Shown here one piece after another: positions 62-46,197 of a stretch of 48,994 nt of DNA. The stretch spans positions 1-48,994 of the forward strand of contig JAJDVY010000018.1 of NCBI GenBank assembly GCA_022825885.1, in the 5' to 3' direction. The notes under the pieces were generated by a model. The model worked only from the letters and a program-made list of their open reading frames with translations. It did no database searches and was not told where the DNA came from. The position numbers were made by a program, and so were the translations under genes. Within the stretch, counting starts at the first letter, position 1. Each line of letters starts with the position of its first letter. Source of the stretch: Nitrospirales bacterium (lineage in GTDB: Bacteria > Nitrospirota > Nitrospiria > Nitrospirales > UBA8639).

Positions 62-92
62 CTGGTACACTCCTTTCTTGATATGAAAGGCA

Positions 93-121
93 GTCTAACA
101 GAGGGAAAATAGTTTTGTCAA
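93..121 (-). promoter_or_regulatory. sigma70-type promoter for the minus-strand gene at the left edge
   Basis: On the minus strand, TTGACA (116-121) is separated by exactly 17 bases from TTAGAC (93-98). The -35 is perfect and the -10 is fair. It sits about 35 bases before the ATG at 61, leaving a short leader with an AAGGAG site. Assigned by motif only. Confidence 0.5.
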
Positions 122-215
122 GTTAAAAGGATAATTCCCCTCCGTTTGTCACGACTTCATGAGTGGCCGTTTTCGTATCAATGCCGGAAAAGAGGCTCAC
201 GCCCGTTAAACGGCG

Positions 216-21174: not shown

Positions 21175-24100
21175 ATGTTTCATTTTAACCCTGTATCCAT
21201 GAAGCGATTTGCTTTTCCGGCAGTGGGAAGCATGTTGGCCGTGGCGTGCTTTGTGCTTCCTCTTGCCAACGCTGAATCCGACGTTTCCGATTCAGCCGCA
21301 GTGATCCAAACCTCGGGAATGAATCACCAGTCCCCCGCTTGGGCCGAACGCCTCAAAGGGCAGACCATTATTGAGAATGCCCAGGAGGGGAGAGCCGAGC
21401 GCGCCGCACTTGTTGAAAAGCAGCATGAGCGTTTGATGCAGCAAATGCAGGAGGAAATGGCCGATTCCAACACCGGCGGTTTCAACACCATGTCCATGAT
21501 GCATCAATACGGTGCGGGCAAGGGCAACTACTTGTTGGCTTCCGACGGCGATATCGAACCGGTGGCCATGACGGGCGGCGGAAAATGCCCGGCCACGGCT
21601 CCCGTGAAGCATTATGATATTTCCGCGATCAACGTGGAAATCACGTTGAATCAATGGCTGGATTATTATCCCGGCTACATGTACGTGCTGACGGAGAATA
21701 TCGAGAACGTCCGGGAAGAGGAAGCCAAAAACGCGGAAGCGCGCGAAGAAGAGGGGCACCACAATCCCGGCGGGGTGAAGAACGGGATCCAGGGGCAGTA
21801 CATTCAACCTCTGGTGATTCGCGGCAACCAGGGTGATTGCGTGAGAGTCACGCTCCGGAACCAGTTGGAATTCGGCGAGGACGTGAGTCTTCACGTCAAC
21901 GGGTCCAGCATGGTGGTCAGCAAGACCGGTCAACCGGCGACGACGACGAACCCTGACGCCATTGCGTATGGCCCCGACGAAGAATGCGAAGAGAATTGTG
22001 AGTCCACGCCCGTGGAAATGGAATGGTTTATCCATCCCGATACCCAGGAAGGCGGGCGGCAGTTCCACAGTTACAGCAATGACCGTGAGTTGACGGTGAT
22101 GGGTCTGTTCGGGGTGTTTGTGGTGGAACCGGCCGGATCAACGTATTTGGACCCGCTGGGGACTGGTCCGGCTACGGATATGCCGAGTGGCTGGCAAGCC
22201 ATGATTCAGAACGGCATGGGTCCGGATTTCCGGGAATTTGTGTTGATTTATCATGAAGTGGGTGACGAAGCGTTCAGGCCGGTCAACAAGCATGGCGACT
22301 TCCTGCCGCAACGTGATCCGTTGACCGATGCCTACCGGCCGGGAGCCCGGGCGTTGAACTACCGGAGCGAACCGTTCGGTATCAACAACATGCACGTTCA
22401 ACATGAGTACTTCGGCTTTGAAGATGAATCCATGGCCTATAGTTCCTATACCTTCGGCGATGCCGGTCCTACGATCCCCCGGAGTTATCTTGGCGATCCC
22501 GCCAAATATCGGTTGGTTCACGGCGGGTCGGAAGTCTTCCATTCCCATCATCCGCACGGCGGAGCCATCCGTTGGACCCGGAGCCCTCGGGCGGTTGATC
22601 AGATGCCGATGTGGCACAAGGGACAGAACGGGCCCGTGAAGTATCCGCTGATTCGTGCGAAGACGGATCGCGTGGACGTGGAAGTGATCGGGCCGTCCGA
22701 AGCATTGGATCTGGAGACCGAATGCGGGTCGGGGCTCTGTCAATATCTGGCCGGTGACTTCCTGTTCCATTGTCACGTGGCGCACCATTACGTGGCCGGC
22801 ATGTGGGGGTACTGGCGGGTTTACAATACGCTGCAAGTGCCCGGTATCCAGAACGACGTGATGGCTCCTCTCCGTGAGTTGCCGGATCGTGTCGGGCGTA
22901 TTGCCAGGCCGGTGACCTCCGACCAATTGGTCGGCACCACCGTGAATTGGTTCGGGACGAAGTTCAACCTGGTTGATAACAGCCAAAAAACCGATTGGAA
23001 CGCCGAGCCGGCCGTGGTTCGGATTTATGATTGGGTTGAAATGCAGTTGCCGACCCGTGGACTTCCCGGTCATACGGAAGACGAGATCGGCCAACTCAAG
23101 TCGTATGACGCCACCGTGATCGATTGGGTCTGGGAGGGCGAGCGTGCGATGAGTGAAAAAGAAAGCACGACCGAGAATCCCAAATACCATCCGGAATGGC
23201 AGGGTTATGAAGCCGGGAAACGCAGGCCCATCTGGTTCGAGCCGACGACGGGGAAAGTCGCGTGGCCGTGGCTGACTCCTCACTTTGGCAAACGCGTGCC
23301 GTTCTCTCCGGACCGGAATCCGGCCCCGTGGCTGGAAATGATCCATCTGGATGAAGACGGCCAGCCGTCCGTGAAGCCGGCGAAGCCTGGTGAAAACGGG
23401 CGCTGGAGCCTCTGTCCGGACCGGGCGGGTTCCCAGGAGTACAATATCCACTTCATCAAGCTTCCGATCGAGTTGTCCGCGGCCCAAGGCGATCAACCGG
23501 CCGTGGTCGATCCGAACGGATTGTTGTATGTGGTGCACGACGAAGAGGAAGCGATCCGGAACAATAATGATTTGAAGGTCCCCTTGGTCTTCCGCGCCAA
23601 TATCTATGATTGTATGGATTGGATGTTGACCAGTGAATGGCTGGACGACGACTTTACGAATTTTCAGTCGTCCAAGATCAATACACACTTCCATTTCGTG
23701 CAATTTGATAATCAGGCGTCCGATGGGGTGATTTCAGGATTTTCATATGAGCAGTCCATGCGGCCCTTTACCCAATTCGAGAAGAAATCGGACAAAGGGT
23801 TGCCGGTTCCCATGAATGCCAAATTCACTAAGGCGGCCGGTAAGGGTGACCGAACCATTCATGTAACGAACGCCGAGCAGTACCACGTCGGTACGGTCAT
23901 TCTCGTCGGCGCGGATAACGTGAGCGGTTCGGAAGTGAAGCGTATCGTTGCCATCGGGAGTTCCGGCGGTTCCTCCTCGGCGGGTGGCGCGAGCGGTGGC
24001 ATGTATACGGTCAACCCCGGAGATACTCTTGGGGCAATCGCGACGCAGCATGGTACCGACGTGGCGACGTTGGTCAGTATGAACGGTCTGGCGAACGCCA

Positions 24101-26313
24101 ATGTGCTGAGCGTCGGACAACAACTGCAAGTGCCCGGTGGCGGCGGTGAAGCAGCGGCACCGAGTGGTGGGGCGCAGACCCTGACCTTCAAAACCCCGTT
24201 GGAGAACGATCATCCGGTCGGGGACATCGTGACCGTGGAATTCGTGCGGCAACGCTTCTGGGCGGATGCCGACGTGGGTTCCGTGTTCTGTCATGATCAT
24301 GCGTTCGGTGGGACCACGTGGCCTCACGGCGCGGTGTGTTCGTTCCTGATCGAGCCGTTCGGGTCGACGTGGCATGATCCGGCAACCGGTGAAGCCAAAC
24401 GGACCGGTCCGGTGATGGACATTCACACGGTCGAGCCCGTCGGGTATGGGGTCAGCGGAAGTTTCCGTGAATTGATGGTTCAAATCATGGATACGGTTCC
24501 GCATACGGTCAATGTGGTGACGGCCGGGAATCCTCCCGGACAACCCGTGGAAGTGGCGTTGGAAGCCGGGCGAACCGTGTCTTTCCAAATGCCGCCGAAC
24601 GAAATGATCAAGATGACGCCGATGCCGTTCCTTAACGGAGGGACGCATACCACGGGTGGGGCCTTGAATTTCCGGGCCGAACCCTTTGCGCAACGGTTGG
24701 CCAACAACCCGGAAACCTCGCAGTTGTTCAGCAGTGGCACGCACGGGGATCCGAGTACGGTCACGTTGCGGGCGTACTTGGGTGATTCCATCGTCTTCAG
24801 GCTGATTGACGTGACGATGAATGAAAGTAACGTCTTCACGGTGTCCGGTCATAACTTCCTGACCGAGCGTTATGCCGGTGACGCCAACCGGAAGAATTCC
24901 ATTCACATCGGCATTGCTGAACGGTATGATTTGGTCGTACCGCAGGCTGGTGGGACGAGACTCCAGCCAGGCGATTACATGTATTTCAACGGCCGGAGTT
25001 CGAAGCTGTCCGAAGGCTCGTGGGGGTTGATTCGGGTTCTGGATAAGGAAGTACCGGACTTGAAGCCGTTGCCGAATGCGGCATACGGCGGGCCTGGCAT
25101 CAAGAAGCCGTTGCCGGTATGTCCGGCCGATGCCCCGGTGAAGAATTTCAACGTCGTGGCCATTGATTATCCGCAAATGGCGTTCAATCCCAACGTGGAA
25201 GAAGCCATCGAAGTGGACTTTGAACGGACGATCGAAGTGAAGAATCCGGATGCCAAGATCTACGTCCTGGAAGAAGAAGTGGCCAAGGTATCCGGAGAAT
25301 TCCAGCCCATGCCGCTGACCTTGCGGGCCAACGTGGGTGATTGTCTCAAGGTGAAACTGACCAACAAGATGAAAGAGGGCCGGGCTTCATTCTCGGCGTT
25401 CTCCCTGGCGTTCGATCCCAAGGATTCTCAAGGGGTGAACTTGGGCAACAATCCCGGTGATCAAACCGTGGCTCCCGGAGAAAGCCGGACCTATACCTAT
25501 TATGCTGATCCGGCCGTCGGGGAAACGCAATCCCTGGTGTGGGATTGGGGCAACGTGGCCATGAACCCGCGGAACGGGTTGTTCGGCGGGATCGTGATCG
25601 GTCCCAAGGGCTCCCAGTATCGCGATCCGAAGACCGGGGCCGACATTTCCGAGAAGAACAGTTGGGCCGCCGACGTGATTGTCGACCGGACGGTTCCCGG
25701 AAATGAGCATCGGGCCAATTATCGTGACGTGGCCCTGTACTTCCAGGATGAAGACAATATTATCGGCACCAGTTTTATGCCGTACGTTCAAAATGTGGCC
25801 GGATTGGTCGGCGTCAATTACCGGAACGAACCGTATCTGTATCGTGAGGAACAAGGGTGCTCATTAGGACGGATGTTCCAACCCTGTAACGTCGATGAAC
25901 CGAATGAACCGGCCACGCCGATTATCGAGGCCCATGCGGGTGACCCGGTCCGGATTCACGTATTCGGAGCCAGTAATGAGCAAAACGGGATGTTCACGCT
26001 GGAAAAACATGAATGGCCCATCGAGCCGTTTATGGAAGGGGCCGATCACATCAGCGTTGTGGAATTTTCCGGGTCCGAGGGGATCGACGCGTTTGTTTCT
26101 TCGGCCGGTGGCCCGTATTCCATGCCTGGCGATTACGTGTACAGCAATGCACGCTTGCCGTATTCCCAGTCCGGGCAATGGGGATATTTCCGCGTGCTAT
26201 CCAAGAATGATCAACGAATCCTCCCGCTCAGCGGGGCTTCCCCCGGAGTCAAGGAAGCCAAAGAAGGTCAATCTGAACAAGGTAGTGTTCGACCGATCTC
26301 GTTCAAGCCATAA
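21175..26313 (+). CDS. MnxG-like large multicopper oxidase with an embedded LysM domain
   Basis: A 1712-residue exported protein with a signal peptide (1-33), a short helical region (60-100), then serial cupredoxin domains. The four His-x-His motifs of a trinuclear copper centre can be read: HSH (456-458, in HSHHPHGG), HCH (532-534), HFH (838-840) and HDH (1040-1042). HCHVAHHYVAGM (532-543) also supplies the type-1 ligands Cys533, His538 and Met543. A LysM domain (about 943-988, YTVNPGDTLGAIA...VLSVGQQLQVP), flanked by Ser/Gly/Ala linkers, interrupts the fold between the third and fourth motifs. A C-terminal cupredoxin pair (from about 1313) repeats the N-terminal pattern (CPxxAPVKxxxxxAI) but without histidine ligands. 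MnxG-type enzymes oxidise Mn(II); the substrate here is unknown. The gene has its own promoter and terminator. Confidence 0.88.
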   Translation: MFHFNPVSMKRFAFPAVGSMLAVACFVLPLANAESDVSDSAAVIQTSGMNHQSPAWAERLKGQTIIENAQEGRAERAALVEKQHERLMQQMQEEMADSNTGGFNTMSMMHQYGAGKGNYLLASDGDIEPVAMTGGGKCPATAPVKHYDISAINVEITLNQWLDYYPGYMYVLTENIENVREEEAKNAEAREEEGHHNPGGVKNGIQGQYIQPLVIRGNQGDCVRVTLRNQLEFGEDVSLHVNGSSMVVSKTGQPATTTNPDAIAYGPDEECEENCESTPVEMEWFIHPDTQEGGRQFHSYSNDRELTVMGLFGVFVVEPAGSTYLDPLGTGPATDMPSGWQAMIQNGMGPDFREFVLIYHEVGDEAFRPVNKHGDFLPQRDPLTDAYRPGARALNYRSEPFGINNMHVQHEYFGFEDESMAYSSYTFGDAGPTIPRSYLGDPAKYRLVHGGSEVFHSHHPHGGAIRWTRSPRAVDQMPMWHKGQNGPVKYPLIRAKTDRVDVEVIGPSEALDLETECGSGLCQYLAGDFLFHCHVAHHYVAGMWGYWRVYNTLQVPGIQNDVMAPLRELPDRVGRIARPVTSDQLVGTTVNWFGTKFNLVDNSQKTDWNAEPAVVRIYDWVEMQLPTRGLPGHTEDEIGQLKSYDATVIDWVWEGERAMSEKESTTENPKYHPEWQGYEAGKRRPIWFEPTTGKVAWPWLTPHFGKRVPFSPDRNPAPWLEMIHLDEDGQPSVKPAKPGENGRWSLCPDRAGSQEYNIHFIKLPIELSAAQGDQPAVVDPNGLLYVVHDEEEAIRNNNDLKVPLVFRANIYDCMDWMLTSEWLDDDFTNFQSSKINTHFHFVQFDNQASDGVISGFSYEQSMRPFTQFEKKSDKGLPVPMNAKFTKAAGKGDRTIHVTNAEQYHVGTVILVGADNVSGSEVKRIVAIGSSGGSSSAGGASGGMYTVNPGDTLGAIATQHGTDVATLVSMNGLANANVLSVGQQLQVPGGGGEAAAPSGGAQTLTFKTPLENDHPVGDIVTVEFVRQRFWADADVGSVFCHDHAFGGTTWPHGAVCSFLIEPFGSTWHDPATGEAKRTGPVMDIHTVEPVGYGVSGSFRELMVQIMDTVPHTVNVVTAGNPPGQPVEVALEAGRTVSFQMPPNEMIKMTPMPFLNGGTHTTGGALNFRAEPFAQRLANNPETSQLFSSGTHGDPSTVTLRAYLGDSIVFRLIDVTMNESNVFTVSGHNFLTERYAGDANRKNSIHIGIAERYDLVVPQAGGTRLQPGDYMYFNGRSSKLSEGSWGLIRVLDKEVPDLKPLPNAAYGGPGIKKPLPVCPADAPVKNFNVVAIDYPQMAFNPNVEEAIEVDFERTIEVKNPDAKIYVLEEEVAKVSGEFQPMPLTLRANVGDCLKVKLTNKMKEGRASFSAFSLAFDPKDSQGVNLGNNPGDQTVAPGESRTYTYYADPAVGETQSLVWDWGNVAMNPRNGLFGGIVIGPKGSQYRDPKTGADISEKNSWAADVIVDRTVPGNEHRANYRDVALYFQDEDNIIGTSFMPYVQNVAGLVGVNYRNEPYLYREEQGCSLGRMFQPCNVDEPNEPATPIIEAHAGDPVRIHVFGASNEQNGMFTLEKHEWPIEPFMEGADHISVVEFSGSEGIDAFVSSAGGPYSMPGDYVYSNARLPYSQSGQWGYFRVLSKNDQRILPLSGASPGVKEAKEGQSEQGSVRPISFKP

Positions 26314-26451: not shown

Positions 26452-27363
26452 ATGGCAGTGCGGACGTGGACGTTGTGCCTGGTCTTGGGGGTGTTCGTGT
26501 CTTCAGGATGGGCGTATGAGGAGATATTGGTCACAAACGGGGGGACCATCAAGGGGCACGTGACGATCACCGGTGACACCCCGAGACCCATGGCCTTCAA
26601 TCTGGTGACGATCCCGGACGCGGTCTATTGCGGTCGTATTTCCACGGGCACGGGGTGGCGGATCGTGGAGGATTTCATCATCGGGGAGGATGGCGGCCTG
26701 AAAGATGCGGTCGTGATGCTCAACGGGATTGAACAAGGGAAGCGGTTCGAGGTGCCCAACGTGTTGATCGAAGCCATGGATTGCGATTTCCTGCCATTCG
26801 TGAACGTGTTGCGCGACCAGGATGAAATCACCGTGATCAACATGGATCCCGTTGAACATGATATCCAGGGGTACGAAACCGCGCGGGTGCGGGGCGCGAG
26901 GGTCTTGTTCAATCGACCGTTACCCATGAATGCGTTTCACAAGGTCCTTGGCATGTTGCACAGCCATCAGCATTTGCCGGGCAAGCCCATGATTCAAAAA
27001 GTGCATCTCAGGAAGGGCCGCAATATTTTTGTCATGCAATGCGGGTTTCATCCATACATGTTCTCCTGGGGCGTGGTGGTCAAAAATCCCTATTACGCGA
27101 TTACCAAGGAAGACGGACGTTTCGACCTGACGGACGTGCCTCCGGGTGAATATACGTTGACGGTCTGGCACGCCGGCATGAAAAAATATCTGGAGCAGAA
27201 GATTGCCGTTCCTGCCGACGCCACGGTTATGCATGATTTCCAATATGAAGCCGTGAAGGGCCGAAGAAGCGTCCATGAAATGCAGGAGAATCCCCACTTC
27301 GGTTTGGAGTTGCTCGGGGAGGGCGTAGAAATTATTCCGTCGGTCAGGCTGCAGAAGCCCTGA
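26452..27363 (+). CDS. secreted cupredoxin fused to a carboxypeptidase-regulatory-like domain (paralog 1)
   Basis: A 303-residue exported protein: signal peptide (1-18), an N-terminal beta domain (GTIKGHVTITGD), a cupredoxin-like core and a C-terminal CarboxypepD_reg-like domain (GRFDLTDVPPGEYTLTVWH, about 220-265). Type-1 copper ligands can be proposed as His136 (VEHDIQ), Cys197, His200 and Met203 (CGFHPYM, C-x2-H-x2-M). A periplasmic or surface copper protein for electron transfer is inferred. GGGAGG precedes the ATG. It is followed at 15 bases by a close paralog, and a third lies at 33005. The position directly after the multicopper oxidase suggests a shared pathway. Confidence 0.82.
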   Translation: MAVRTWTLCLVLGVFVSSGWAYEEILVTNGGTIKGHVTITGDTPRPMAFNLVTIPDAVYCGRISTGTGWRIVEDFIIGEDGGLKDAVVMLNGIEQGKRFEVPNVLIEAMDCDFLPFVNVLRDQDEITVINMDPVEHDIQGYETARVRGARVLFNRPLPMNAFHKVLGMLHSHQHLPGKPMIQKVHLRKGRNIFVMQCGFHPYMFSWGVVVKNPYYAITKEDGRFDLTDVPPGEYTLTVWHAGMKKYLEQKIAVPADATVMHDFQYEAVKGRRSVHEMQENPHFGLELLGEGVEIIPSVRLQKP

Positions 27364-27378
27364 CGACTCGGAGTGTCG

Positions 27379-28281
27379 ATGAAAGCTTTTCTGAGCACCG
27401 GCTTGTGCCTGATCCTTTCGGCGTCCCCCGTATGGGGCTATGCCGTGAAAGAAATTGCCGATGGCGGAATCGTCCAAGGGACGGTCACCCTTTCCGGAAA
27501 GGTGCCGGACCCCAAGGCGTATAACCTGGTCATTTTCCCTGACCCCGAATACTGTGGGCGCATCTCCAACGGGAACGGGTGGCGACTCCTGCGTGATTTT
27601 CTGGTGAACGAGCAAGGGCAGGTGAGGAACGTCGTCGTGTTGTTGGAAGGTGTGACGGAGGGCAAACCGTTTGCTCTTTCCGTTCCGAGAGTCGAAGCGA
27701 GGGATTGCCGGTTTTCACCCTTCACGACCGTCGTGCGTAGCGGACATGGCATCGAAGTGGTGAACATGGATCCCGTGATGCATGATATTCAGGCCTACGA
27801 GACCTCAACGGCCATGGGGACACGGGTGTTGTTCAATTCACCGCTGCCCTTCAATCATCGGCATCGACGAGGCGATCTGCATGCGACCCATGACCATAGA
27901 CCCGGGGAGTCGTTGGTCCGGCAATTCCAGTTGAGCAAGAAACGCCGGACGTTCGTCATGCAATGCGGGTTTCACGCGTACATGGAAAGCTGGGCCATTG
28001 CCGTGGATAATCCTTACTACGTGCTGACCGATGAGAACGGACGGTTTTCCATCAAGGACGTGCCGCCCGGGACGTATGATCTCCGGGCGTGGCATCCCGG
28101 CATCAAGCAGGTCATGAAGAAGCCGGTGACGATCGAGCCCGGCGCGAATCTGACGATCGATTTCCAATTGCCTTCGCCGGGAAGACGAAAAACCGCGCTC
28201 ACGGTCCGGACGCCTCCCCGATTCACTCCCGCGGCGTTGGGCCGGGAATTTACGATCGAACCTGTTCTCGAGCGCCAGTAG
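27379..28281 (+). CDS. secreted cupredoxin fused to a carboxypeptidase-regulatory-like domain (paralog 2)
   Basis: A 300-residue tandem paralog of the preceding gene; CGRIS, the MDPVxHDIQ segment and MQCGFH are shared. The signal peptide (MKAFLSTGLCLILSASPVWG) is clear. Proposed copper ligands are His135, Cys196, His199 and Met202 (CGFHAYM). The C-terminal domain has GRFSIKDVPPGTYDLRAWHP. ATG 27379 is preferred over GTG 27373 because GGAG lies 5 bases before it. The stop codon falls inside a perfect 28-bp palindrome. Same operon as paralog 1. Confidence 0.82.
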   Translation: MKAFLSTGLCLILSASPVWGYAVKEIADGGIVQGTVTLSGKVPDPKAYNLVIFPDPEYCGRISNGNGWRLLRDFLVNEQGQVRNVVVLLEGVTEGKPFALSVPRVEARDCRFSPFTTVVRSGHGIEVVNMDPVMHDIQAYETSTAMGTRVLFNSPLPFNHRHRRGDLHATHDHRPGESLVRQFQLSKKRRTFVMQCGFHAYMESWAIAVDNPYYVLTDENGRFSIKDVPPGTYDLRAWHPGIKQVMKKPVTIEPGANLTIDFQLPSPGRRKTALTVRTPPRFTPAALGREFTIEPVLERQ

Positions 28282-28305
28282 GGAACAACGATCGTTGTTC
28301 CCTAC
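28278..28305. repeat. perfect 28-bp palindrome over a stop codon
   Basis: From GTAGGGAACAACGA at the left to its exact complement at the right, every base pairs across the centre at 28291/28292. The TAG stop of the preceding gene (28279-28281) is part of it. There is no T-tract. The GTAGGG...CCCTAC ends match the interspersed hairpin repeats around 7980-8050, and a second GTAGGGAC...TGTCC element follows at 28333-28358, so these are likely repeat insertions rather than an operator. Confidence 0.75.
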
Positions 28306-28376
28306 CGTTTGGCAGGATGATGTGCATCCAATGTAGGGACACCCCCCTGTGGCTGTCCGTCGGTTTCATTGTGGTC

Positions 28377-29030
28377 ATGGTTTTCCGTTCAACCCGGTCC
28401 GGGTGGTCGCGTCTCCTTCCCGTTTTCCTGCTCTCGTTTATTCTTATGTCCTTTTCCGGGTCTTTCGCTTCCGATGTCGGCGTTCCGGCGTCGCGAAACG
28501 TGGATGAGTTGGAATTTTCAGCCCGTCTGACGTGGCGGACCAATGGAAAGACCTCACGTGCTCAATTGTTCGTCAAAGGGGATCGTTACCGGATCGAACA
28601 TCGAGGAGGGGTTAAAACGGATATGGGCTATGCCACGGTCACGATCATCCGTCTGGACAAACAACAGGTGTGGTACATTCTTTCCCAACGCCGTTTGGTG
28701 ATGGCGGTTCCATTGACCCTGGATTATGTGCTTCCCCTGGCGGTGACGTTGGACGGGGAGATCTCCCGGTCCCTGATCGGCGATGCCATGGTCGGCGATC
28801 AGGAGGCCACGTTGTACGAAGTGGTGGTGGACCGTTACGAACGCCGGGAGACGTATTATCAATGGGTCGATGCCGCGCGGCAGTTGTTGTTAAAACTCGT
28901 GAGTCTGGATCGGGATTGGTCCGTGGAATATGAGCGGGTCGTGCTCTCGAAACAGCCTGAGTATTTTTTTGAAACGCCATTGGGGTATCGAATGTTCCAA
29001 GCCACCGAAAAACAGGCGGATGAAGGGTAA
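28377..29030 (+). CDS. exported LolA-like/DUF4412-like protein
   Basis: A 217-residue protein with a signal peptide (MVFRSTRSGWSRLLPVFLL onward). The mature part is a run of beta strands of the lipoprotein-carrier type: FSARLTWRTNGKTSRAQLFVKGDRYRIEHRG, then TVTIIRLDKQQVWYILSQRRL, and further strands. It resembles the LolA/LolB-like half-barrel, so lipid or lipoprotein binding in the periplasm is plausible, but no family is certain. ATG 28377 is chosen because earlier in-frame starts (28317, 28320) lie in repeat-derived sequence. The stop is directly followed by the next ATG. Confidence 0.65.
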   Translation: MVFRSTRSGWSRLLPVFLLSFILMSFSGSFASDVGVPASRNVDELEFSARLTWRTNGKTSRAQLFVKGDRYRIEHRGGVKTDMGYATVTIIRLDKQQVWYILSQRRLVMAVPLTLDYVLPLAVTLDGEISRSLIGDAMVGDQEATLYEVVVDRYERRETYYQWVDAARQLLLKLVSLDRDWSVEYERVVLSKQPEYFFETPLGYRMFQATEKQADEG

Positions 29031-30389
29031 ATGGCTATGACGGTTCTGAAATGGACGGCAGCTTTCGCGGGTGTCGTTTGTTGTGTCCTGATGGTTGCAG
29101 GGTCCGTTGCGGGGAAAACGTCTCCCGAAGAGCAGTTGGGTCTGGCCAAACAGGCGTTCGAGCGGGGCGATTTTCAGAAGACCCTGGAACTTGTTGAGCC
29201 CCTCCTCGACGACGCGCAATGGCGGCGGTCGTCCTCCCGGCTCAAGATGATGGGTTTGGTGCGGCTCGGTAAAACCGCCGAAGGCATCAATGCCTATGAG
29301 GCATTCGTCAAGGCGAACGGAAAGGATGAAGGGCTGCTTCGTGAACTCGCCGTCCAGAGTATTCTGCCCTTCCGGTCGGATATGCGCGAACAGGTGAGAG
29401 GGGCGGCTTATTCGGCGTTGAAGGAAATTCCGTCCGATGAGGTGGTCCCGTATTTTCAGGATGGGCTCAGTGACGGATCGGGCATGATTCGGGTATTGGT
29501 TGCCGAGGGTATGGGCAAGTTGCCGGCAGGGCGACAATCAGACGGCTTTCGCAACGCGCTCAAGGATAAGGCGGGCCTAGTCAGGGTCACGGTCTTGAAG
29601 GCTTTAGGCCGATGGGGAGATCCCGGGTCCGTTTCCCTGATTGTCCCGTTGTTGAAGGATGAGCACCGGGTTGTGCAGGTTGCCGCGGCCGCGGCCCTGT
29701 ATCGGCTCGGGCAGAAAGAACACTGGCAGACTGTGGCCCAGGCGACCAACGTGCCGGAAGGCTATGAACGAGGAGGGGCGCTGCGAATGCTCGGCGAAAT
29801 CGGGGACCCCAAGGGCTTGCCGCTTCTCAAACAGGGGCTTCGTGATAAACAGCCGTCGATTCGCGCGGCGGCAGCCGCTTCGCTGGGAAAACTCGGTTCA
29901 GCCGAAGGCGTTCCTTCCCTGATCAAGGCGCTTGCCGACCCTGTCCCGGCCGTCCGAAGCGTGGCCGCCGTGACGTTGGGGAAGTTGAGGGCTGAACGGG
30001 CGATCTCCCCTTTGACCCGGGCTTTGCAGGATCGCAATATGGGCGTGCGGGCCGCAGCCGTTGCGGGTTTGCTCCAATTGAGCAGCCCGTTCAGCGTCGT
30101 AGCCGGAGCCGTGCGAGAATTGATGGGACAACAGAATCCGGGCCTGCGTTCTTCCGTGGCGAAAGCATTGGGACATGGCCGTGCCCGCGACGTGACCGGG
30201 CCCTTGCTGCTCCTGCTCAACGATCCCGTGCCAAAACCGCGTATTTCCGCGGCCAGATCTTTGGGCAGAGTCGGTGGGCAAGAACTGATCCCTCGTCTCA
30301 AACCGCTCATGAAAGATCAGAACGAAGCCGTCCGCGCCACGGCAGCCGGAGCCATTGTGCGTCTCCTCTCGGCTTCGCCCGAGACCTGA
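29031..30389 (+). CDS. exported HEAT-repeat protein
   Basis: A 452-residue protein with a signal peptide (about 1-28), a TPR-like N-terminal portion (about 30-95: EEQLGLAKQAFERGDFQKTLELVEPLL), and PBS-lyase-type HEAT repeats to the end (VRAAAVAGLLQL, IRAAAAASLGKLGS, VRSVAAVTLGKLRA and similar, each about 31 residues, around ten units). These are protein-protein scaffolds. ATG 29031 abuts the stop of the preceding gene; ATG 29037 would fit AAGGG better. Part of the operon after the cupredoxin pair; likely a periplasmic scaffold for the copper proteins, which is inference. Confidence 0.82.
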   Translation: MAMTVLKWTAAFAGVVCCVLMVAGSVAGKTSPEEQLGLAKQAFERGDFQKTLELVEPLLDDAQWRRSSSRLKMMGLVRLGKTAEGINAYEAFVKANGKDEGLLRELAVQSILPFRSDMREQVRGAAYSALKEIPSDEVVPYFQDGLSDGSGMIRVLVAEGMGKLPAGRQSDGFRNALKDKAGLVRVTVLKALGRWGDPGSVSLIVPLLKDEHRVVQVAAAAALYRLGQKEHWQTVAQATNVPEGYERGGALRMLGEIGDPKGLPLLKQGLRDKQPSIRAAAAASLGKLGSAEGVPSLIKALADPVPAVRSVAAVTLGKLRAERAISPLTRALQDRNMGVRAAAVAGLLQLSSPFSVVAGAVRELMGQQNPGLRSSVAKALGHGRARDVTGPLLLLLNDPVPKPRISAARSLGRVGGQELIPRLKPLMKDQNEAVRATAAGAIVRLLSASPET

Positions 30390-30546
30390 CGCCCCAGGCG
30401 TCTTGACGGCTCAATGTTCCATTGAGTGGGCGACGACCTTTCTCTAGAATAACGGCCATGACGCATTTCGGCCTTCGTTGTTTTCAAATTCCACGGTTCA
30501 TCCGTCACTTGAGACGAAAACATCAGACGGTACCCCGAACCCGTCA

Positions 30547-30770
30547 TTGGTATAAAAAGAGATACCAATACCTCAAGTCTCTCATTCCCGACGTTTGTCC
30601 CCGACCTGATCGGGGATCGAGGCAATTTATGGGAATCCAGTGTCGTTCGTCTTCACGAACAAAGGAAAAAGAAAAAACCCTGGATCCTCGATTAACAATG
30701 TCGAGGATGACAGAAGGAGAAGGCGGGAGGATGACGGAAGGAGAAGGCGGGAATGACGGAAGGGGGCAGT
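30547..30770. repeat. cluster of palindromic and tandem repeats upstream of and into the DUF255 gene
   Basis: In order: a TTGGTAT/ATACCAA hairpin (30547-30568); nested inverted repeats with ATTCCC (30584) and GGGAAT (30631) around TCCCCGACCTGATCGGGGA (30598-30616); a REP-like unit with stem ATCCTCGA/TCGAGGAT (30678-30717); and about two and a half copies of a 24-bp tandem unit carrying GAGGATGACGGAAGG (about 30704-30766). The last block resembles the right end of the REP-like unit, apparently amplified. Confidence 0.65.
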
Positions 30771-32710
30771 GGCATGGTAAGTTGGCTGCAAGTCTGCACG
30801 GGAGATTCTTCGGTATATGGCTAGTGGGCTTCCTCTTGCTTTCAACGCCTGTAGCCGCAGGTGAGCAACTCGTTGCCTCATCCCCGGCCGTTCATTGGGC
30901 GGCATGGGGAGCCGAGGCTTTTGAGCGTGCGCAAGCGGAAGACAAGCTGATCCTGCTCGATCTGACGGCCATCTGGTGTCATGCCTGTCACGTGATGGAT
31001 GAGACGGCATACGTCGATCCCGCGGTGGTCGAATTCCTGAATGCCGGATTCATCCCGGTTAGGGTTGATACCGATCAGCGTCCGGATATTGCGGCCCGGT
31101 ATAAACACGGTGGGTGGCCGACTACCAGCGTCCTGCTTCCTTCCGGGGAAATTCTCTTCCAGGCGAATGCGTTGTCTCCTGATGCCATGCTCGAAGTGTT
31201 GCGTACGTCTGATGCCTTTTACCGGGAAAACAGGCGGGGTATGGCTGAACGGGTCGCCCAGGTCTGGGAACGGGTCGCATCGGCGCAACGGGCAAGCCGT
31301 CAGCCTCAGGGGCGCATTTACCCGGAGATGTTGCCGCAAATCCTTGCAATGATGAAGCTGGAGTATGACCCCGTGTCCGGCGGGTTCCGGGACGCTCCGA
31401 AATTTTTTGAGCCCGCGGCCATTGCCTTGGCTTTTTCCCATCATTTTTGGTATCGGGATTCGGAGTGGCGGCAAATGGCGTTGTTTACCCTGGATCAGCA
31501 GTTGAAACTCCATGATCCGGTCTGGGGCGGGTTTTTTCGTTATGCCGAGGCAGCGGATTGGTCCCATCCGCATTATGAGAAGTTACTTTCCATCCAGGCG
31601 ACCAACCTGCTCAATTATCTGGAGGCCTATCAGGTTACGGGCCTGCCGCAGTACCGCGAGGTGGTTGAAGAAACCATGCGGTACGTGGAGCGGTTTCTAT
31701 CAGACCGGGACCGTGGCGGCTTTTATGCCAGTCAGGATTCCGATGTTCGATACGTCGGGCGTTCAGGTCGCGACGTCACGGGTCGCGAGTTTTTTGCCTT
31801 GGACGAATCACAAAGACTGGCGGTCGGCATTCCCTTTGTGGACCGGACAATGCTGACCGACTCGAATGCCCTCATGATCAAGGCTTCTCTCAGGGTTTCA
31901 CAGGTTCTGGGAAACATGCAGGCTCGGGAGTTTGCCCTCAAGACCCTCCGCCGGTTGTACAAGGAACGTTATCAACCCGGCCGTGGCTTGGCGCATCTTC
32001 TTCATGATGGGTATCCCGGGGAGTTCGGGTTGCTCGCCGACCAGGTCTTTTTTGCGGACGCGTTGCTCGAAGCCTTTTTGAGTACCGGATCGTCCCATTA
32101 TCTGAAACAGGCTCAAACCGTCATCGAGGATGTCATCCGTTTATTTGAAGACAGCCGGGCAGGGGGGTATTTCGACCGGACGCCGTCTGCTTCCTCGTTG
32201 GGATTGTTGAAATTTCCTCAAAAGGATCTCCCTGTCAACGCCGCGTTGTCCCAGGTCTTTTCCGACTTGTTTTACCTGACCCAAAATCCGCGATACCGGG
32301 AAAAGGCGGAGCATATTCTCCGAATGATTCTGGATGCCGGTTCTCTGCCGGTTGCCCGGACGGGTCTTGCGCTTCACCGGTTCCTGTACTATCCCGTTCA
32401 TATTGTGGTGGTGGGTGAAAAGTCTGAGGTTATGGCCCGGGATCTCTTTGACCGCAGCCTGGCTATGTACGCTCCCGGGAAACTGGTCCGGTTTTTGGAT
32501 CCCCGCGTTGATTCCCTGTCCATCGGCGAGGTTACCTTTCCCGACGTGACCGGCCCGGTTGCCTATGTATGCACGGATCGATTGTGCTCCAGCCCGATTG
32601 CGCAGGCCGAAGAGTTGCCGGACCGTTTCCAGGAAATGTTGACGGCACTCACTGAGGCGCGGAAACCTTTTTCGACGAGGCATGGCACACCTTCTTCAAG
32701 TGCCCGTTAA
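30731..32710 (+). CDS. exported thioredoxin-domain protein of the YyaL/DUF255 family
   Basis: About 659 residues: a hydrophobic export signal (FFGIWLVGFLLLSTPVAAG, about 28-46), a thioredoxin-like N-terminal domain whose active-site-like motif WCHACH has Cys83 and Cys86, and a long alpha/alpha barrel like that of N-acylglucosamine 2-epimerases. Cytosolic YyaL proteins normally have WCHWCH and no signal, so export is notable. The precise reaction is unknown. The start is unclear: ATG 30731 lies inside a 24-bp tandem repeat, and TTG 30782 just before the hydrophobic stretch is a good alternative. A 340-base gap separates it from the HEAT gene. Confidence 0.78.
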   Translation: MTEGEGGNDGRGQWHGKLAASLHGRFFGIWLVGFLLLSTPVAAGEQLVASSPAVHWAAWGAEAFERAQAEDKLILLDLTAIWCHACHVMDETAYVDPAVVEFLNAGFIPVRVDTDQRPDIAARYKHGGWPTTSVLLPSGEILFQANALSPDAMLEVLRTSDAFYRENRRGMAERVAQVWERVASAQRASRQPQGRIYPEMLPQILAMMKLEYDPVSGGFRDAPKFFEPAAIALAFSHHFWYRDSEWRQMALFTLDQQLKLHDPVWGGFFRYAEAADWSHPHYEKLLSIQATNLLNYLEAYQVTGLPQYREVVEETMRYVERFLSDRDRGGFYASQDSDVRYVGRSGRDVTGREFFALDESQRLAVGIPFVDRTMLTDSNALMIKASLRVSQVLGNMQAREFALKTLRRLYKERYQPGRGLAHLLHDGYPGEFGLLADQVFFADALLEAFLSTGSSHYLKQAQTVIEDVIRLFEDSRAGGYFDRTPSASSLGLLKFPQKDLPVNAALSQVFSDLFYLTQNPRYREKAEHILRMILDAGSLPVARTGLALHRFLYYPVHIVVVGEKSEVMARDLFDRSLAMYAPGKLVRFLDPRVDSLSIGEVTFPDVTGPVAYVCTDRLCSSPIAQAEELPDRFQEMLTALTEARKPFSTRHGTPSSSAR

Positions 32711-32839
32711 TTCGTTGTTTTGTAGAATCGTGGCGGTGAGATGTCGGCAAACAAAAATGGCTGCATGGGCTTTCCGCGTCCGTTCCCTTAAGCCGGTTTA
32801 CGGCTTGCTGCCAGAGGTCGTCACTCCCAAGCGGTTGAC

Positions 32840-32868
32840 TTGACACCCTCAATACAGGTTGTTATAAA
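32840..32868 (+). promoter_or_regulatory. near-consensus sigma70 promoter of the third cupredoxin paralog
   Basis: TTGACA (32840-32845), a 17-base spacer, and TATAAA (32863-32868) form one of the strongest promoters visible in the window. A leader of about 130 bases then leads to a CAGGAGGAAT ribosome site and ATG 33005. The remaining bases of the gap from 32711 show no gene. Confidence 0.75.
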
Positions 32869-33004
32869 GAAAAATTGTTGCGCGAAAGAAGATTCGAGGA
32901 ATTTCTCGCCTGTTGTTTGAATTTAAGGCGGACCGGGAGCTGAAATCCGTCAGGTTTTTCCCCCCGACTCGGACAACACTTATTCTCAACCAGGAGGAAT
33001 ATCT

Positions 33005-33799
33005 ATGAGGACTCGTCAGTTGCTTACTTTGTCTGTTTTCCTTGGTGGGTTGCTGGTTGCAATGCCACTGATTGCTCAGGCCGGCGGAACGATCAAGGGG
33101 AAAGTCATGTATTCCGGCAAACCCGTTGCGGCAAAAGAATTTGCTTTTTCCAAATTTCCCAATCCGGCCTTCTGTAAACAAAATCCCAGTAAAAAAGGGG
33201 ATGATACGCGTTTATTGAAAGAAGTCGAAGTGGACGGAAACAAAGGGCTCAAGAATGCGATCGTGTCGGTTCGCGGCATTAAGGACAAAGGCTTTAAGGC
33301 GACGCCGAACGTGATTGCCAAGTTGTGTGAGTTCCTGCCCTTTACCGGCGTGTTGGTGAACAAAGGGAACTTCATCGTGGAAAATACCGATGCGGACCCC
33401 AATGACCCCAAGTCCAAGGAAGGGGTTTTGCACAACCCCCATAGCTTCGACGTGCTCGGTGCGAAATCCTCGACCCTGTTCAACATCGGTTTGGCCAAGA
33501 AAGGCGACAAGCTGGACAAGAAAATCAAGATGCGCATGGCCAGGAAAGGTTCCGTTCTCCGGTTGCAATGTGACCAGCACGAATTCATGCAAGCCTGGTT
33601 CCTGCCCGTGAGCAACGGTCATTTCGGCGTGTCCGGTGGCGACGGGTCCTTTGAGATTAAGGATGTCCCCGCGGGCAAGCACAAAGTTCTGGCTTGGCAC
33701 CCGGTGGCCGGCAACGTGACTGCGGAAGTGGAAGTCAAGGACGGCGCGACCGTGGAAGCCAACTTCGACATCAAGAAGAAAAACAAGTTCAAAATGTAA
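33005..33799 (+). CDS. secreted cupredoxin-like protein, lysine-rich (paralog 3)
   Basis: A 264-residue exported protein with a signal peptide (to about residue 27, AQA). It shares the layout of the pair at 26452 and 27379: GTIKGKVMYSG at the N-terminus, a cupredoxin-like core, and a C-terminal GSFEIKDVPAGKHKVLAWHP domain. Copper ligands are proposed as His143 or His146 (LHNPHSFD) with Cys189, His192 and Met195 (CDQHEFM). It is far more lysine-rich than its paralogs (tail KKKNKFKM), giving a strongly basic protein that could dock acidic cytochromes. It sits alone between a strong promoter and a strong terminator, so it is probably abundant. Confidence 0.82.
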   Translation: MRTRQLLTLSVFLGGLLVAMPLIAQAGGTIKGKVMYSGKPVAAKEFAFSKFPNPAFCKQNPSKKGDDTRLLKEVEVDGNKGLKNAIVSVRGIKDKGFKATPNVIAKLCEFLPFTGVLVNKGNFIVENTDADPNDPKSKEGVLHNPHSFDVLGAKSSTLFNIGLAKKGDKLDKKIKMRMARKGSVLRLQCDQHEFMQAWFLPVSNGHFGVSGGDGSFEIKDVPAGKHKVLAWHPVAGNVTAEVEVKDGATVEANFDIKKKNKFKM

Positions 33800-33826
33800 G
33801 CACCTTCTTTTGTTTTTGCAGAGTGG

Positions 33827-33862
33827 AAAGGGCGGCAACGGTTGATCGTTGCCGCCCTTTTT
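33827..33862 (+). terminator. rho-independent terminator after the third cupredoxin paralog
   Basis: A 14-bp stem (AAAGGGCGGCAACG against CGTTGCCGCCCTTT) with a 6-base loop is followed by T residues. It defines the preceding gene as a single-gene transcript. Confidence 0.93.
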
Positions 33863-33920
33863 GCTTTGTGCTTGTTCTTGCGTTTGCGGCTTCCAGCCCG
33901 TTACTATTTCAGGAGATTGT

Positions 33921-33962: not shown

Positions 33963-34955
33963 GTGGTGTCTCGGGAGCTCTCTCTCGCAGAAATATTTCA
34001 AATCGGGTATTACTGGGAGACGAAAATTCTCCTCACGGCCATCAAGCTGGACCTTTTTTCAGCCTTGGATGGCCGTTCCGATTCTGCCTCTGACTTAGCC
34101 CATCGGTTATCTCTCGATGAACGGGCGTTGAGCCTTCTTTTGCACGCGTTGGTCGCCATGCGGGTCATGACGAAAGATGAGGACCGTTTTGCGAACACCG
34201 GCGTCGCCCGGAAACACCTGGTAAAAGTCAGCCCGGACTACGTCGGGCACCTTCTGGTGCTTCACGATTCAGAATGGACGAATTGGGGGAAATTGGAAGA
34301 GGCGATCCGAACCGGCGTGTCTCCGGTTCACCGGCACGTGTTTGAGACCGATCCGGAAATGGGCGCCAACGTGTTGGCGGTGTTGGATCGGATCGGCCGG
34401 GGGAGCGGGGTCACCTTGGCGAAGGTGCTGCAATTGGATGGCGTGGAATGCATGCTGGACGTTGGCGGGGGAGCCGGGACGAACGCGATAGCCTTTTGCC
34501 GGGAGTCCCCAGGGCTCAGGGCCACGGTCTTTGATCTGCCGTCGACACTTCAAGTGACCGAACGGTCGATCAAGGAAGCCGGGCTGGAGGATCGGATTGC
34601 CGTCATGCCCGGCAATTTCAATACGGATTCCCTGGGCGGGCGTTATGATCTGGTGCTCCTGTCCGACGTGCTTCATTACCAGGACGCGCGAGCGAATGCC
34701 GCATTGGTGCATAAGGCCTTTGCGCATCTCACGGACGCGGGCCGGTTGGTGATCAAGGATCGGTTTTTGGATCCGGATCGAACGAGTCCGGCTTGGACCA
34801 CGGCGTTTGCCGTGCATATTCTGGTCAATACGGAAGAGGGGCAGTGCTTCACGACTCAGGAGGCCATGGAGTGGATGACCCGGGCAGGCTTTGTTTCCGT
34901 CACGGAACTGGAACCACGGGCGATTGTTCAGGGAATCAAATCAGGAGAGAATTAA
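33963..34955 (+). CDS. SAM-dependent O-methyltransferase-like protein (CrtF/BchU type)
   Basis: A 330-residue protein with an N-terminal winged-helix dimerisation domain (about 10-95) and a C-terminal Rossmann methyltransferase domain. SAM motif I is DVGGGAGTNA from about residue 166, followed by VFDLPSTLQVTERSI, and then VLLSDVLHYQDARANAALVHKAF. This is the methyltransf_2 layout shared by hydroxyneurosporene methyltransferases, BchU and acetylserotonin methyltransferases. The substrate is unknown. The start is a GTG with AAAGGA 3 bases before it. It abuts the DUF420 gene (stop TAA then ATG), suggesting cotranscription. Confidence 0.82.
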   Translation: MVSRELSLAEIFQIGYYWETKILLTAIKLDLFSALDGRSDSASDLAHRLSLDERALSLLLHALVAMRVMTKDEDRFANTGVARKHLVKVSPDYVGHLLVLHDSEWTNWGKLEEAIRTGVSPVHRHVFETDPEMGANVLAVLDRIGRGSGVTLAKVLQLDGVECMLDVGGGAGTNAIAFCRESPGLRATVFDLPSTLQVTERSIKEAGLEDRIAVMPGNFNTDSLGGRYDLVLLSDVLHYQDARANAALVHKAFAHLTDAGRLVIKDRFLDPDRTSPAWTTAFAVHILVNTEEGQCFTTQEAMEWMTRAGFVSVTELEPRAIVQGIKSGEN

Positions 34956-35672
34956 ATGGCTGAATGGTTACGAGAGCCGGGGTTTGTGGGGACGCATGCC
35001 ACCATGGGGGCCGATGTCAGTCAGTTGATGGCCACGTTGTTCACCGTGTTGTTTATCGTCGGGTGGCTCCAGGCCAAAAAGAGTCACGCGAGCGGGCATC
35101 ATTGGTTGATGCTCGGCGGCATGATTGCCATGCTGGCATTTTTCGTCAGTTATTATTTGTTTCGCCAGCTCGGCGTGTTGGCCTTTGAAGGGAAAGAAGG
35201 GTTCGGCGGATCGCAGGCATTGTATGACAACGTGTTTGTTCCGCTTTTGACTTTTCACATTCTCCTGGTCGTGATCGGATTGATCATGGCCATTTACATG
35301 ATTGTCCTGGGATTTCGCTCTCAGACGTTTATCAACGGCCAACGTCTGTTACGTGAGGCCGTCCTGCAAACCACCGGAAAGAAAATAGCCGTCATGTTCG
35401 GTGGAGTGACGGCGCTCGTGTTGCTGCTGTTTTTCAGTCGCGTGGCTGCCAGCGGGTTTTCCATGGGGAAATTCGGCGTGTATCTCGGACTCCTTATCCT
35501 TCTTGCTCTTGTGTTCGGCATTGAGGTGGCCATCCAGCGCCTGTGGCCGAATGGGGCGCGACGGCACCGGGTCCTGGGCCGGTTTACCATGGTGGTGTAT
35601 TGTGTGTTGTTCCTGACCGGCAGTATTACCTATACCATGCTCTATATTTTGTATCCCGGACGAATCGGGTAA
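34956..35672 (+). CDS. DUF420 family membrane protein
   Basis: A 238-residue polytopic protein with about six transmembrane helices. Conserved His residues occur in HATMG, HASGHHWLM and FHILLVVIGLIMAIYM, and RRHRVLGRFT lies before the last helix. DUF420 (YozB-like) proteins are often linked to heme-copper oxidase biogenesis genes, and the location just upstream of a bd-like oxidase fits a role in oxidase assembly or heme handling; the exact function is unknown. A GGAG site precedes the ATG, which directly follows the methyltransferase stop. Confidence 0.8.
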   Translation: MAEWLREPGFVGTHATMGADVSQLMATLFTVLFIVGWLQAKKSHASGHHWLMLGGMIAMLAFFVSYYLFRQLGVLAFEGKEGFGGSQALYDNVFVPLLTFHILLVVIGLIMAIYMIVLGFRSQTFINGQRLLREAVLQTTGKKIAVMFGGVTALVLLLFFSRVAASGFSMGKFGVYLGLLILLALVFGIEVAIQRLWPNGARRHRVLGRFTMVVYCVLFLTGSITYTMLYILYPGRIG

Positions 35673-37457: not shown

Positions 37458-39301
37458 AACTCGGCCTGTCTATTTTCCTGTTGTGCGTCTTGGGTTGCGT
37501 GTGGGCCGCACCGATGACGGGGTGGGCCGGTCAGGAATCCCCTGCTCCGACCCGGGACGTTTATTATCAGACGAACGGAATCCCTCAGGGCCCTCCGGCC
37601 ACAGAAACCGGATCCACCTACCCGCAGTGGCAACCGCTCAATAACCGGATCATCATCTGGCTTGTCACGCAGCAGCACACCTATTTCGGCGGGTTTGTTC
37701 TGGCCCTGCCGTTGTTTGCGTTTCTCCTGGAATTTTTTGGTCTCACGCGTCGTGATCCGCAGGCCGCCCAACGCTACGACGGCCTGGGCCGCGACATTCT
37801 TCGCGTTGGAGTGGTCTCGCTCTCGGTCACGGCCCTGCTTGGCAGCGTCATGCTTGGAGCGTTCGTGACGTTCTATCCCGTGTTCATGACCTACATGGGA
37901 TCCACGTTCAAACAGATGATGCCGCTGTATGCCGCGGTGTTTTTAGGGGAATCCTTCCTCCTGGTTCTGTACTACTACAGTTGGGACCGTCTGGCCCGGG
38001 GTGCCGGGAAATGGGTGCACCTGTCGATCGGGGTGGTTGCGAACGCCATGGGCGTGATGTTGCTGCTGTTGGCCAATGCCTGGGCGTCGTTTATGATGGC
38101 CCCCGCGGGGGTCAACGCCGAAGGACAGTTTTTGGGAAATATCTGGCATTTGTTGCATTCGCCGTTATGGAACCCCCTGAATGCTCATCGGTTTCTGGCG
38201 GATATCATGTCCGGGGGCGCCGTGGTCGTGGCCTATGCGGCGTACCGGTTCTTGAAGACCCGGGGCCAGGAGGAGCGGGCCTATTACGATTGGGTGGGGT
38301 ACGTGTTCATCGTCGTGGTGGTATGTGCCTTACTCCCCATGCCCTTTGCCGGGTACTGGCTGATGCGTTCCGTGTTCGAGTTTCGTCAGGAGATGGGCAT
38401 GACCATGATGGGCGGGTTGTTGTCCTGGCTGTTCGTCGTTCAGGCCACCACCATCGGCGCACTGTTTCTCGGTATCAATTATTACATCTGGCAGTCACTG
38501 GGACGGTTGCGTGATGGTGAACGGTATCATCCCTATTTTAAATTCATTCTCGGGGGATTGATGGTGTCATTTCTGGTCTGGTTCACGCCCCATACCATTG
38601 CCATGACCCCCAGCGAAATGAAAGCCATGGGCGCTGCCCAACATCCGGTCATCGGACAATTCGGCGTGATGTCGGCCAAAAACGGCGCCGTGAACGTCAT
38701 GATTTGTCTGACCACTTTGAGCTACCTGTTATATCGGCGTGCCAACCGGGTCATTGCCGTGCCGTGGGCGGCGGCGGGAAATGTGGCGATCGGGGCGCTG
38801 TTTGTCACGGGTGTGGCCAATATCGTCTGGGTCTCGGTTTACGGGTTTTTCATTCCTGCCCACGTTCGGGTGGGCCTGTCCATTCCGCAGGGGGCGACCA
38901 CGGCGACGGTTTTGCTCGGAGGGTTGCTGATCAATCATTTTCTGTTGAAGGGGAGCGAGGTTCGAGGTCCCATCCAATGGGGCCGGATATCCGTCCGAGG
39001 GATGGTGGCGTTGTTTGGGGTTGCTGCGACGTTTTCCTGGGTAATGGGGTTGATGGGGTATATCCGGTCGGCCGGCCGGTTGGGATGGCACGTGAATGAA
39101 CTTATGGCGGACGTGTCCCCATGGGCCTTTACCCCCGCCATCACGTTTGCGGCCAAAATGGTAACCATCAATATGGTGCTGTTTTGGGCTTCGGTGTTTT
39201 TCATGTTTTGGCTGGCCACCAGGGACCGGTCGGCCGTTGTGGAAAAGGATGCCCCGAGTATGTCGTTTGTGCAGGCGTTCTCAAGAGAGGAGTCCGTATG
39301 A
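37454..39301 (+). CDS. cytochrome bd-like oxidase subunit (paralog 1)
   Basis: A 615-residue membrane protein with an N-terminal signal-like segment, an extracytoplasmic stretch (RDVYYQTNG) and about fourteen hydrophobic helices. It resembles CydA only distantly: NAWASFMMAPAGV parallels the CydA N-x-W-M-x-x-P-x-G segment. Histidines shared with the paralog at 42792 occur in QQHTYFGG (His75), NIWHLLH, PLNAHR, FTPHTIAMTP, AQHPV and WHVNE, and are heme or metal ligand candidates. This family is known from Nitrospira, where it has been proposed as a terminal oxidase. There is no cydB nearby. It starts at the ATGA overlap with the upstream gene and overlaps the DUF3047 gene by the same device. Confidence 0.82.
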   Translation: MKLGLSIFLLCVLGCVWAAPMTGWAGQESPAPTRDVYYQTNGIPQGPPATETGSTYPQWQPLNNRIIIWLVTQQHTYFGGFVLALPLFAFLLEFFGLTRRDPQAAQRYDGLGRDILRVGVVSLSVTALLGSVMLGAFVTFYPVFMTYMGSTFKQMMPLYAAVFLGESFLLVLYYYSWDRLARGAGKWVHLSIGVVANAMGVMLLLLANAWASFMMAPAGVNAEGQFLGNIWHLLHSPLWNPLNAHRFLADIMSGGAVVVAYAAYRFLKTRGQEERAYYDWVGYVFIVVVVCALLPMPFAGYWLMRSVFEFRQEMGMTMMGGLLSWLFVVQATTIGALFLGINYYIWQSLGRLRDGERYHPYFKFILGGLMVSFLVWFTPHTIAMTPSEMKAMGAAQHPVIGQFGVMSAKNGAVNVMICLTTLSYLLYRRANRVIAVPWAAAGNVAIGALFVTGVANIVWVSVYGFFIPAHVRVGLSIPQGATTATVLLGGLLINHFLLKGSEVRGPIQWGRISVRGMVALFGVAATFSWVMGLMGYIRSAGRLGWHVNELMADVSPWAFTPAITFAAKMVTINMVLFWASVFFMFWLATRDRSAVVEKDAPSMSFVQAFSREESV

Positions 39302-41284: not shown

Positions 41285-41320
41285 CGGTGCCGGAGCGAGG
41301 GCTATCGAGGTTGCGCTGTC

Positions 41321-42707: not shown

Positions 42708-42791
42708 GCAGCATCAGTCGTCTTTCTGAAAATCATAACGATAGAGGATTATTGTTCTTTGAATAATTTCAAAGAAAGAAGGAGGTTGGTC

Positions 42792-44820: not shown

Positions 44821-44837
44821 ATTTGTGGAGGGGCAAG

Positions 44838-46157: not shown

Positions 46158-46197
46158 TCCTGAAACTCTGTGATTCAGAAAACAGGAGTTTAATACG

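Follow-up and report, generated by a model that had tools for sequence, protein, structure and literature searches.

Predicted cupredoxins set within a split carboxypeptidase-regulatory domain accompany an MnxG-like oxidase and a bd-like oxidase cluster in Nitrospirales

The stretch of DNA analysed here (the window) is a single 48,994-base contig, JAJDVY010000018.1, from the 2.38 Mb draft genome of a Nitrospirales bacterium; its nearest named relatives are Nitrospira/Nitrospirales assemblies including bin75 and SB0677, the isolate UBA8639 being more distant. It encodes three proteins with a cupredoxin-type ligand set, designated CupI, CupII and CupIII, as well as a large MnxG-like multicopper oxidase and a cytochrome bd-like oxidase cluster. 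In structure models, the Cup proteins carry their plastocyanin/amicyanin-like domain as an insert that splits a carboxypeptidase-D (CPD) regulatory domain. Comparison with related genomes revealed two modules, one made of the multicopper oxidase with CupI and CupII, the other of CupIII with two SUMF1 proteins, a bd-like oxidase and two cytochromes c. The reading we favour, with somewhat better than even confidence, is that the Cup proteins are type-1 copper carriers, CupI and CupII serving the multicopper oxidase and CupIII the bd-like complex.

The original prediction described three genes with an exported layout, a Cys-x2-His-x2-Met copper loop and a regulatory-like beta domain at the C-terminus. 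The open reading frames, their strands and the loops were confirmed, an N-terminal export-type sequence was read by eye on all three proteins, and the upstream histidine ligand was additionally located in each (H136, H135 and H143). The position of the beta domain had to be corrected. AlphaFold2 returned a mean predicted local distance difference test score of 89 for CupIII and 81.5 for CupI. Using VIA-align, residues 97-203 of the predicted CupIII model superposed on plastocyanin and amicyanin with Z about 9-10.5, and residues 101-211 of the predicted CupI model likewise showed the cupredoxin fold (Z about 10 against plastocyanins). The CupIII model also matched the CPD-regulatory domain 1qmu (Z 12.1, root mean square deviation 1.8), with 79 residues aligned across positions 29..259 but just 56 residues left after the cupredoxin; the first regulatory strands therefore lie before the cupredoxin, which appears as an insertion within the split domain. 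The CupI model agreed with this architecture. PF13620 (CarboxypepD_reg) gave 36.5 bits for CupI and 47.5 bits for CupII, above the cut-off of 32.3, and a sub-threshold 21.0 bits for CupIII. Joining the N- and C-terminal pieces raised the PF13620 score slightly and made the match modestly wider for CupI and CupIII, not for CupII; with so small a gain, the case for an insertion is made by the fold match.

The Cup proteins resemble amicyanin and plastocyanin in their predicted fold, their His + Cys-x2-His-x2-Met ligands and the amicyanin spacing of the loop. They differ by the insertion in a regulatory-type domain and by two further invariant cysteines (C57/C108 in CupIII). Sequence comparison gave no clear match to solved cupredoxins (best E 0.26), and a PDB sequence search with CupIII alone returned nothing useful. 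No description of the inserted-cupredoxin architecture was found in the literature searched, which is weak evidence of novelty given that coverage was incomplete and most subscription papers were missing.

The scan that retrieved 80 named loci used a pattern that itself contained Cys-x2-His-x2-Met, making motif conservation there partly a matter of construction. Ligand conservation was therefore recounted in 81 divergent representatives outside those loci: the His, Cys, His and Met ligands and the two further cysteines were invariant in 81/81. In a 26-member alignment (CupIII numbering), the invariant positions included G32, P52, C57, C108, N127, D129, H143, C189, H192 and M195, and, in the regulatory domain, G214, P222, G224, W231 and H232. 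CupIII was monophyletic (20/20 members, support 0.94). Its identity across families f1-f3 was at least 54%, with one exception at 44%, as compared with 24-30% to CupI and CupII. A recent tandem family of three was rejected on these grounds, CupIII being a separate clade. Mature CupIII was, as anticipated, highly basic (computed isoelectric point 9.6, charge +14; the computed values for CupI and CupII were 6.3 and 9.2). A sixth family member was observed in genome G000 (L009, G000:C43:42000-55000, 8141-8950); this short form carries the loop CDRHDFM and adjoins a Phenol_MetA_deg-like protein, with no oxidase nearby.

The giant oxidase encoded upstream of CupI aligned with MnxG (PDB 9bxa) in four stretches. 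It scored 113.6 bits against NCBIfam NF041487, whose equivalog cut-off is 3100; by sequence it is a relative of MnxG, not MnxG itself. A type-1/type-3 motif, HCHVAHHYVAGM, lies at residues 532-543 (HCHxxxHxxxxM), and HxH pairs were located at 456/458, 838/840 and 1040/1042. Together they make one complete set of copper motifs (type-1 plus trinuclear), whose His and Cys residues were invariant in 60/60 homologues. A LysM domain sits between the oxidase halves (Pfam 3e-14) in 21/60 homologues, the window included. A reasonable reading of these motifs is an O2-reducing multicopper oxidase that would be held near the cell wall. The Bacillus MnxEFG system is similar in having a large multicopper oxidase of the MnxG type, and here too genes for putative small copper proteins adjoin. 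MnxE and MnxF are small copper proteins encoded beside MnxG. The two systems differ in size (MnxG has 1227 residues, the window oxidase 1712), in the neighbours, which are hybrid cupredoxins in the window, and in the LysM domain of some members. Genes of the MnxG type are on record for UBA8639 and further nitrifiers, their function not having been demonstrated (PMC11995701).

Genes of the CupIII family and of the oxidase were present in 58/60 relatives. Over three families, and with some losses, the order was kept as oxidase, CupI, CupII, an exported protein without family, HEAT, (DUF255), CupIII, methyltransferase, DUF420, two small genes and bd-like. Where a named locus had sufficient flank, CupIII was followed by the methyltransferase and DUF420 genes in 50 of 54 cases and preceded by the oxidase in 27 of 39, a count that the 20 kb length of the loci may have lowered by cutting the oxidase off. 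Of the 14 genomes in a deeper set, 11 belong to the class but not to the order (class-level) and 3 to family f4. There, the oxidase had a Cup gene on its own strand within 2.5 kb at 18 of 26 loci, compared with an expectation of 0.23; most of the other loci are on cut contigs. The original prediction had proposed a survey of gene neighbourhoods, with loss of the oxidase-cupredoxin linkage counting against it; the linkage proved conserved across Nitrospirales and in these deeper loci.

In the class-level genomes CupIII was found apart from the oxidase, and in several of them it adjoined the two SUMF1 genes, the bd-like gene and the two cytochromes c (L194 and L204; partly L209, L197 and L207). 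This separate placement indicates that the window joins two older modules. The proposal of a dedicated periplasmic copper electron-transfer set received strong support in one respect, since linkage, invariant ligands and predicted fold all point to a conserved set tied to the oxidase. It did not hold as a single system, because the two blocks lie apart in some lineages, the oxidase being accompanied by CupI/II and the bd-like/cytochrome complex by CupIII. CupIII orthologues with no bd-like genes nearby were seen in three class-level loci (L200, L202 and L210); the CupIII module is not universal.

CupIII had been credited with a strong promoter and a terminator of its own, and both were borne out. 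The near-consensus promoter pattern CTTGACAC...TGnTATAnA was kept in 16/16 aligned loci, window included, a few with one change. These loci span several genera, and much of the surrounding DNA has diverged. A stricter TATAAT rule does not pick up this promoter, whose -10 box is TATAAA. From the conserved promoter and the terminator, strong transcription of CupIII as a single gene is probable. Codon bias, taken as a sign of high CupIII expression, showed nothing distinctive. A second near-perfect promoter, TTGACA-N17-TATAAT, was observed at 42291-42319, roughly 440 bp ahead of the second bd-like gene.

Several relatives link the oxidase module to nitrite oxidoreductase (NXR). In G030 (L051, G030:C1:2932000-2951999), two NxrA copies flank a second oxidase-CupI pair, all on one strand, and such pairs lie near NxrA in G024, G021 and G031 (L061 among these loci), which ties the module to nitrite oxidation in the relatives concerned. 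NxrA was searched for in 11 class-level and 4 f4 genomes and in the genome of the window. The latter encodes an NxrA-like protein of 1145 residues on contig C16 (partial match to TIGR03479, below cut-off). None was found in the other 15 genomes, and the class-level ones carry the module. NXR was also missed in several Nitrospirales drafts, so that absence from one draft is weak; absence from all 15 suggests that the oxidase-Cup module does not depend on NXR.

Parts of this gene set have been described. For Nitrospina and Nitrospira, Luecker et al. (2013, PMC3578206) count among the genes of nitrite oxidation those for cupredoxin-like proteins, a bd-like oxidase, monoheme and diheme cytochromes c and an MnxG-like oxidase, and they suggest that copper carriers could take the place of heme carriers. 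Genes of the alt_nxrC_2/bd-like cluster were among the 40 most strongly transcribed in N. moscoviensis (Mundinger et al. 2019, PMC6606698), and the content of that cluster corresponds to that of the window between 37.4 and 49.0 kb, where a bd-like oxidase, two cytochromes c and an NxrC-like protein occur together. The Nitrospina/Nitrospira/Kuenenia set and the N. moscoviensis cluster share with the window the bd-like oxidase, cytochromes c, an EB_dh/NxrC-like protein, cupredoxin-like proteins and, for Nitrospina and Nitrospira, the MnxG-like oxidase. The view that the system could be matched to nothing described was thus too strong. The text of these papers describes no cupredoxin domain architecture and no two-module split, and their two cupredoxin-like proteins may belong to the Cup families. 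New features are the insertion of one domain in the other, a history of two modules and the persistence of the module where no NXR was found.

We propose that CupI, CupII and CupIII would act as exported blue-copper one-electron carriers, the CPD regulatory domain being a scaffold or docking platform for the inserted cupredoxin. CupI and CupII would be redox partners of the neighbouring oxidase, most likely passing electrons to its type-1 copper, and the oxidase would then reduce O2 at the trinuclear centre. CupIII, basic and expressed separately and probably strongly, would serve as carrier for the bd-like oxidase/cytochrome c/EB_dh complex, which in Nitrospirales may take electrons from nitrite oxidation. 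Alphaproteobacterial relatives provide independent support for a respiratory role: their genes lie near SCO and cbb3-type oxidase genes, one of them between two cytochromes c. Rhizobiales genes annotated as 'carboxypeptidase regulatory-like domain-containing protein' (e.g. WP_237143596.1) have the same layout and ligands (HN ... CDAHGWM); they differ in sharing about 25-32% identity and in lying near SCO/cbb3-type oxidase genes, not a giant oxidase. Three points weigh against the carrier role. A recent comparative study assigned NXR-to-oxidase transfer to cytochrome c (PMC12342949). A His-rich loop with HxH occurs in 93/146 proteins of the CupI/II type and in 0/104 CupIII proteins, which fits copper delivery too. 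Finally, gene neighbourhood proves neither interaction nor direction, and the roles of the Cup proteins, like their copper binding and substrate, are predicted.

Copper delivery to the oxidases is accordingly the main rival, although we regard it as rather unlikely. CupI and CupII would then be copper-handling accessories supplying copper to the oxidase or stabilising it, as may be the case for MnxE/F or CutF and their own oxidases, and CupIII might likewise metallate the bd-like complex. Besides the distribution of the HxH loop, the co-directional Cup genes adjoining the oxidase in the deeper loci and the SCO copper-chaperone genes near the alphaproteobacterial relatives are in line with this. 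Nevertheless, the type-1 ligands are complete and invariant with an amicyanin-length loop, a combination typical of electron transfer; the HxH loop is absent from about a third of the oxidase-linked members, and the alphaproteobacterial member flanked by two cytochromes c argues for a carrier.

It is less probable still that the oxidase with CupI and CupII forms an oxidation path for Mn(II) (or Fe/Cu), the Cup proteins accepting metal-derived electrons and passing them to the respiratory chain with conservation of energy. The homology to MnxG and the module in same-class genomes with no detected NxrA would fit, and Nitrospira has been linked to the removal of Mn by sand filters (PMC12070406). 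Manganitrophaceae, not known to be among the genomes examined, encode two novel multicopper oxidases, and a periplasmic carrier would be required for these to serve lithotrophy (Yu and Leadbetter 2022, PMC9040806). However, with an intact trinuclear centre the oxidase can hand electrons directly to O2, and Mn oxidation has not been shown in the nitrifier families concerned (PMC11995701). A protective oxidase that makes Mn(III) or consumes O2 against reactive oxygen, fed by Cup proteins with no role in energy metabolism, is equally improbable: PMC3578206 proposed such defence via Mn(III) from the lack of superoxide dismutase and catalase in N. gracilis and the absence of the MnxG-like gene in the anammox organism Kuenenia, but it leaves CupIII with the bd-like complex unexplained. 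A strict NXR-only role was weakened by the oxidase-Cup module in class-level and f4 genomes where no NxrA was found.

Table 1. Features of the window discussed in the text
Feature	Coordinates	Strand	Details and evidence
Single-domain cupredoxin-like protein	17728..18222	+	H99 + C149-x2-H152-x2-H155; His99 invariant
Large MnxG-like multicopper oxidase, exported	21175..26313	+	1712 aa; LysM at residues 944-987; MnxG PDB 9bxa E 4e-73
CupI, predicted exported cupredoxin inserted in CPD-regulatory domain	26452..27363	+	303 aa; ligands H136, C197, H200, M203; loop CGFHPYM
CupII, CupI paralogue	27379..28281	+	300 aa; ligands H135, C196, H199, M202; loop CGFHAYM
Inverted repeat/hairpin at CupII end	28279..28306	+	fold of 28275-28315, z -6.4
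Exported protein, no family assigned	28314..29030	+	syntenic; no Pfam match above cut-off
Exported HEAT-repeat protein	29031..30389	+	PF13646 1.5e-50; syntenic
Exported DUF255 (DsbH-type thioredoxin) protein, start codon approximate	30752..32710	+	PF03190 3e-28; synteny
CupIII promoter TTGACA-N17-TATAAA	32840..32868	+	0.06 matches expected in whole window
CupIII, basic hybrid cupredoxin, distinct clade	33005..33799	+	264 aa; ligands H143, C189, H192, M195; loop CDQHEFM
Intrinsic terminator after CupIII	33820..33867	+	-34.9 kcal/mol, z -7.2
O-methyltransferase-like protein	33963..34955	+	PF00891; syntenic with CupIII in Nitrospirales
DUF420 membrane protein	34956..35672	+	PF04238; syntenic
First cytochrome bd-like (CydA-like) protein	37460..39301	+	PF01654 1e-18
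Two SUMF1/FGE-domain proteins	40370..42235	+	PF03781 (first); homology (second) and synteny; CupIII module in deeper relatives
Second cytochrome bd-like protein	42759..44756	+	PF01654; synteny; CupIII module in deeper relatives
Two membrane cytochromes c (44823-46157; 46198-47163)	44823..47163	+	PF00034/PF13442; synteny
Diheme cytochrome c fused to EB_dh (ethylbenzene-dehydrogenase-like), alt_NxrC_2-like	47186..48994	+	PF00034, PF09459; open at contig end

The remaining genes of the region are listed in Table 1. The HEAT-repeat and DUF255 assignments made earlier were right, and the DUF255 gene was not found at the corresponding place in several f3 and f2 loci. The label 'LolA-like' given to the product of 28314-29030 was unsupported, its sole Pfam match being a sub-threshold LptF/G. 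The protein encoded at 17728 had been called a single cupredoxin; its Cys-x2-His-x2-His motif, with no Met, does not make an ordinary type-1 site, and we regard it as a candidate for an unusual copper site. Its linkage to the oxidase was confined to loci of family f1. A profile of 9 homologues matched no cupredoxin in the PDB, and a likeness to nitrosocyanin was not confirmed. At 1505-7471, a 1988-residue exported protein was observed with many fibronectin-type repeats and a C-terminus that, read by eye, looks of the outer-membrane autotransporter type.

The literature leaves two questions standing: by which route electrons travel from NXR to the terminal oxidase of Nitrospira, and what the giant MnxG-like enzyme does in nitrifiers (PMC3578206, PMC11995701). 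With three concrete, expressible and conserved candidate proteins, both can be tested. Although some of the parts were known before, specific tests follow from how the domains are arranged, from the history of two modules and from the promoter's conservation. The inserted-domain architecture also supplies diagnostic residues for proteins annotated only as 'carboxypeptidase regulatory-like', those of Rhizobiales included. At its furthest, and this we hold to be doubtful, CupIII could be the main soluble carrier from NXR to the bd-like terminal oxidase in Nitrospirales, replacing cytochrome c or acting beside it, and CupI/II with the oxidase an older, NXR-independent, class-wide module that would supply metal-oxidising members with the periplasmic acceptor required if their oxidase is to conserve energy. 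Collectively, the data presented single out the Cup proteins as good candidates for soluble electron carriers, of which little is known in nitrite-oxidising Nitrospira and their relatives.

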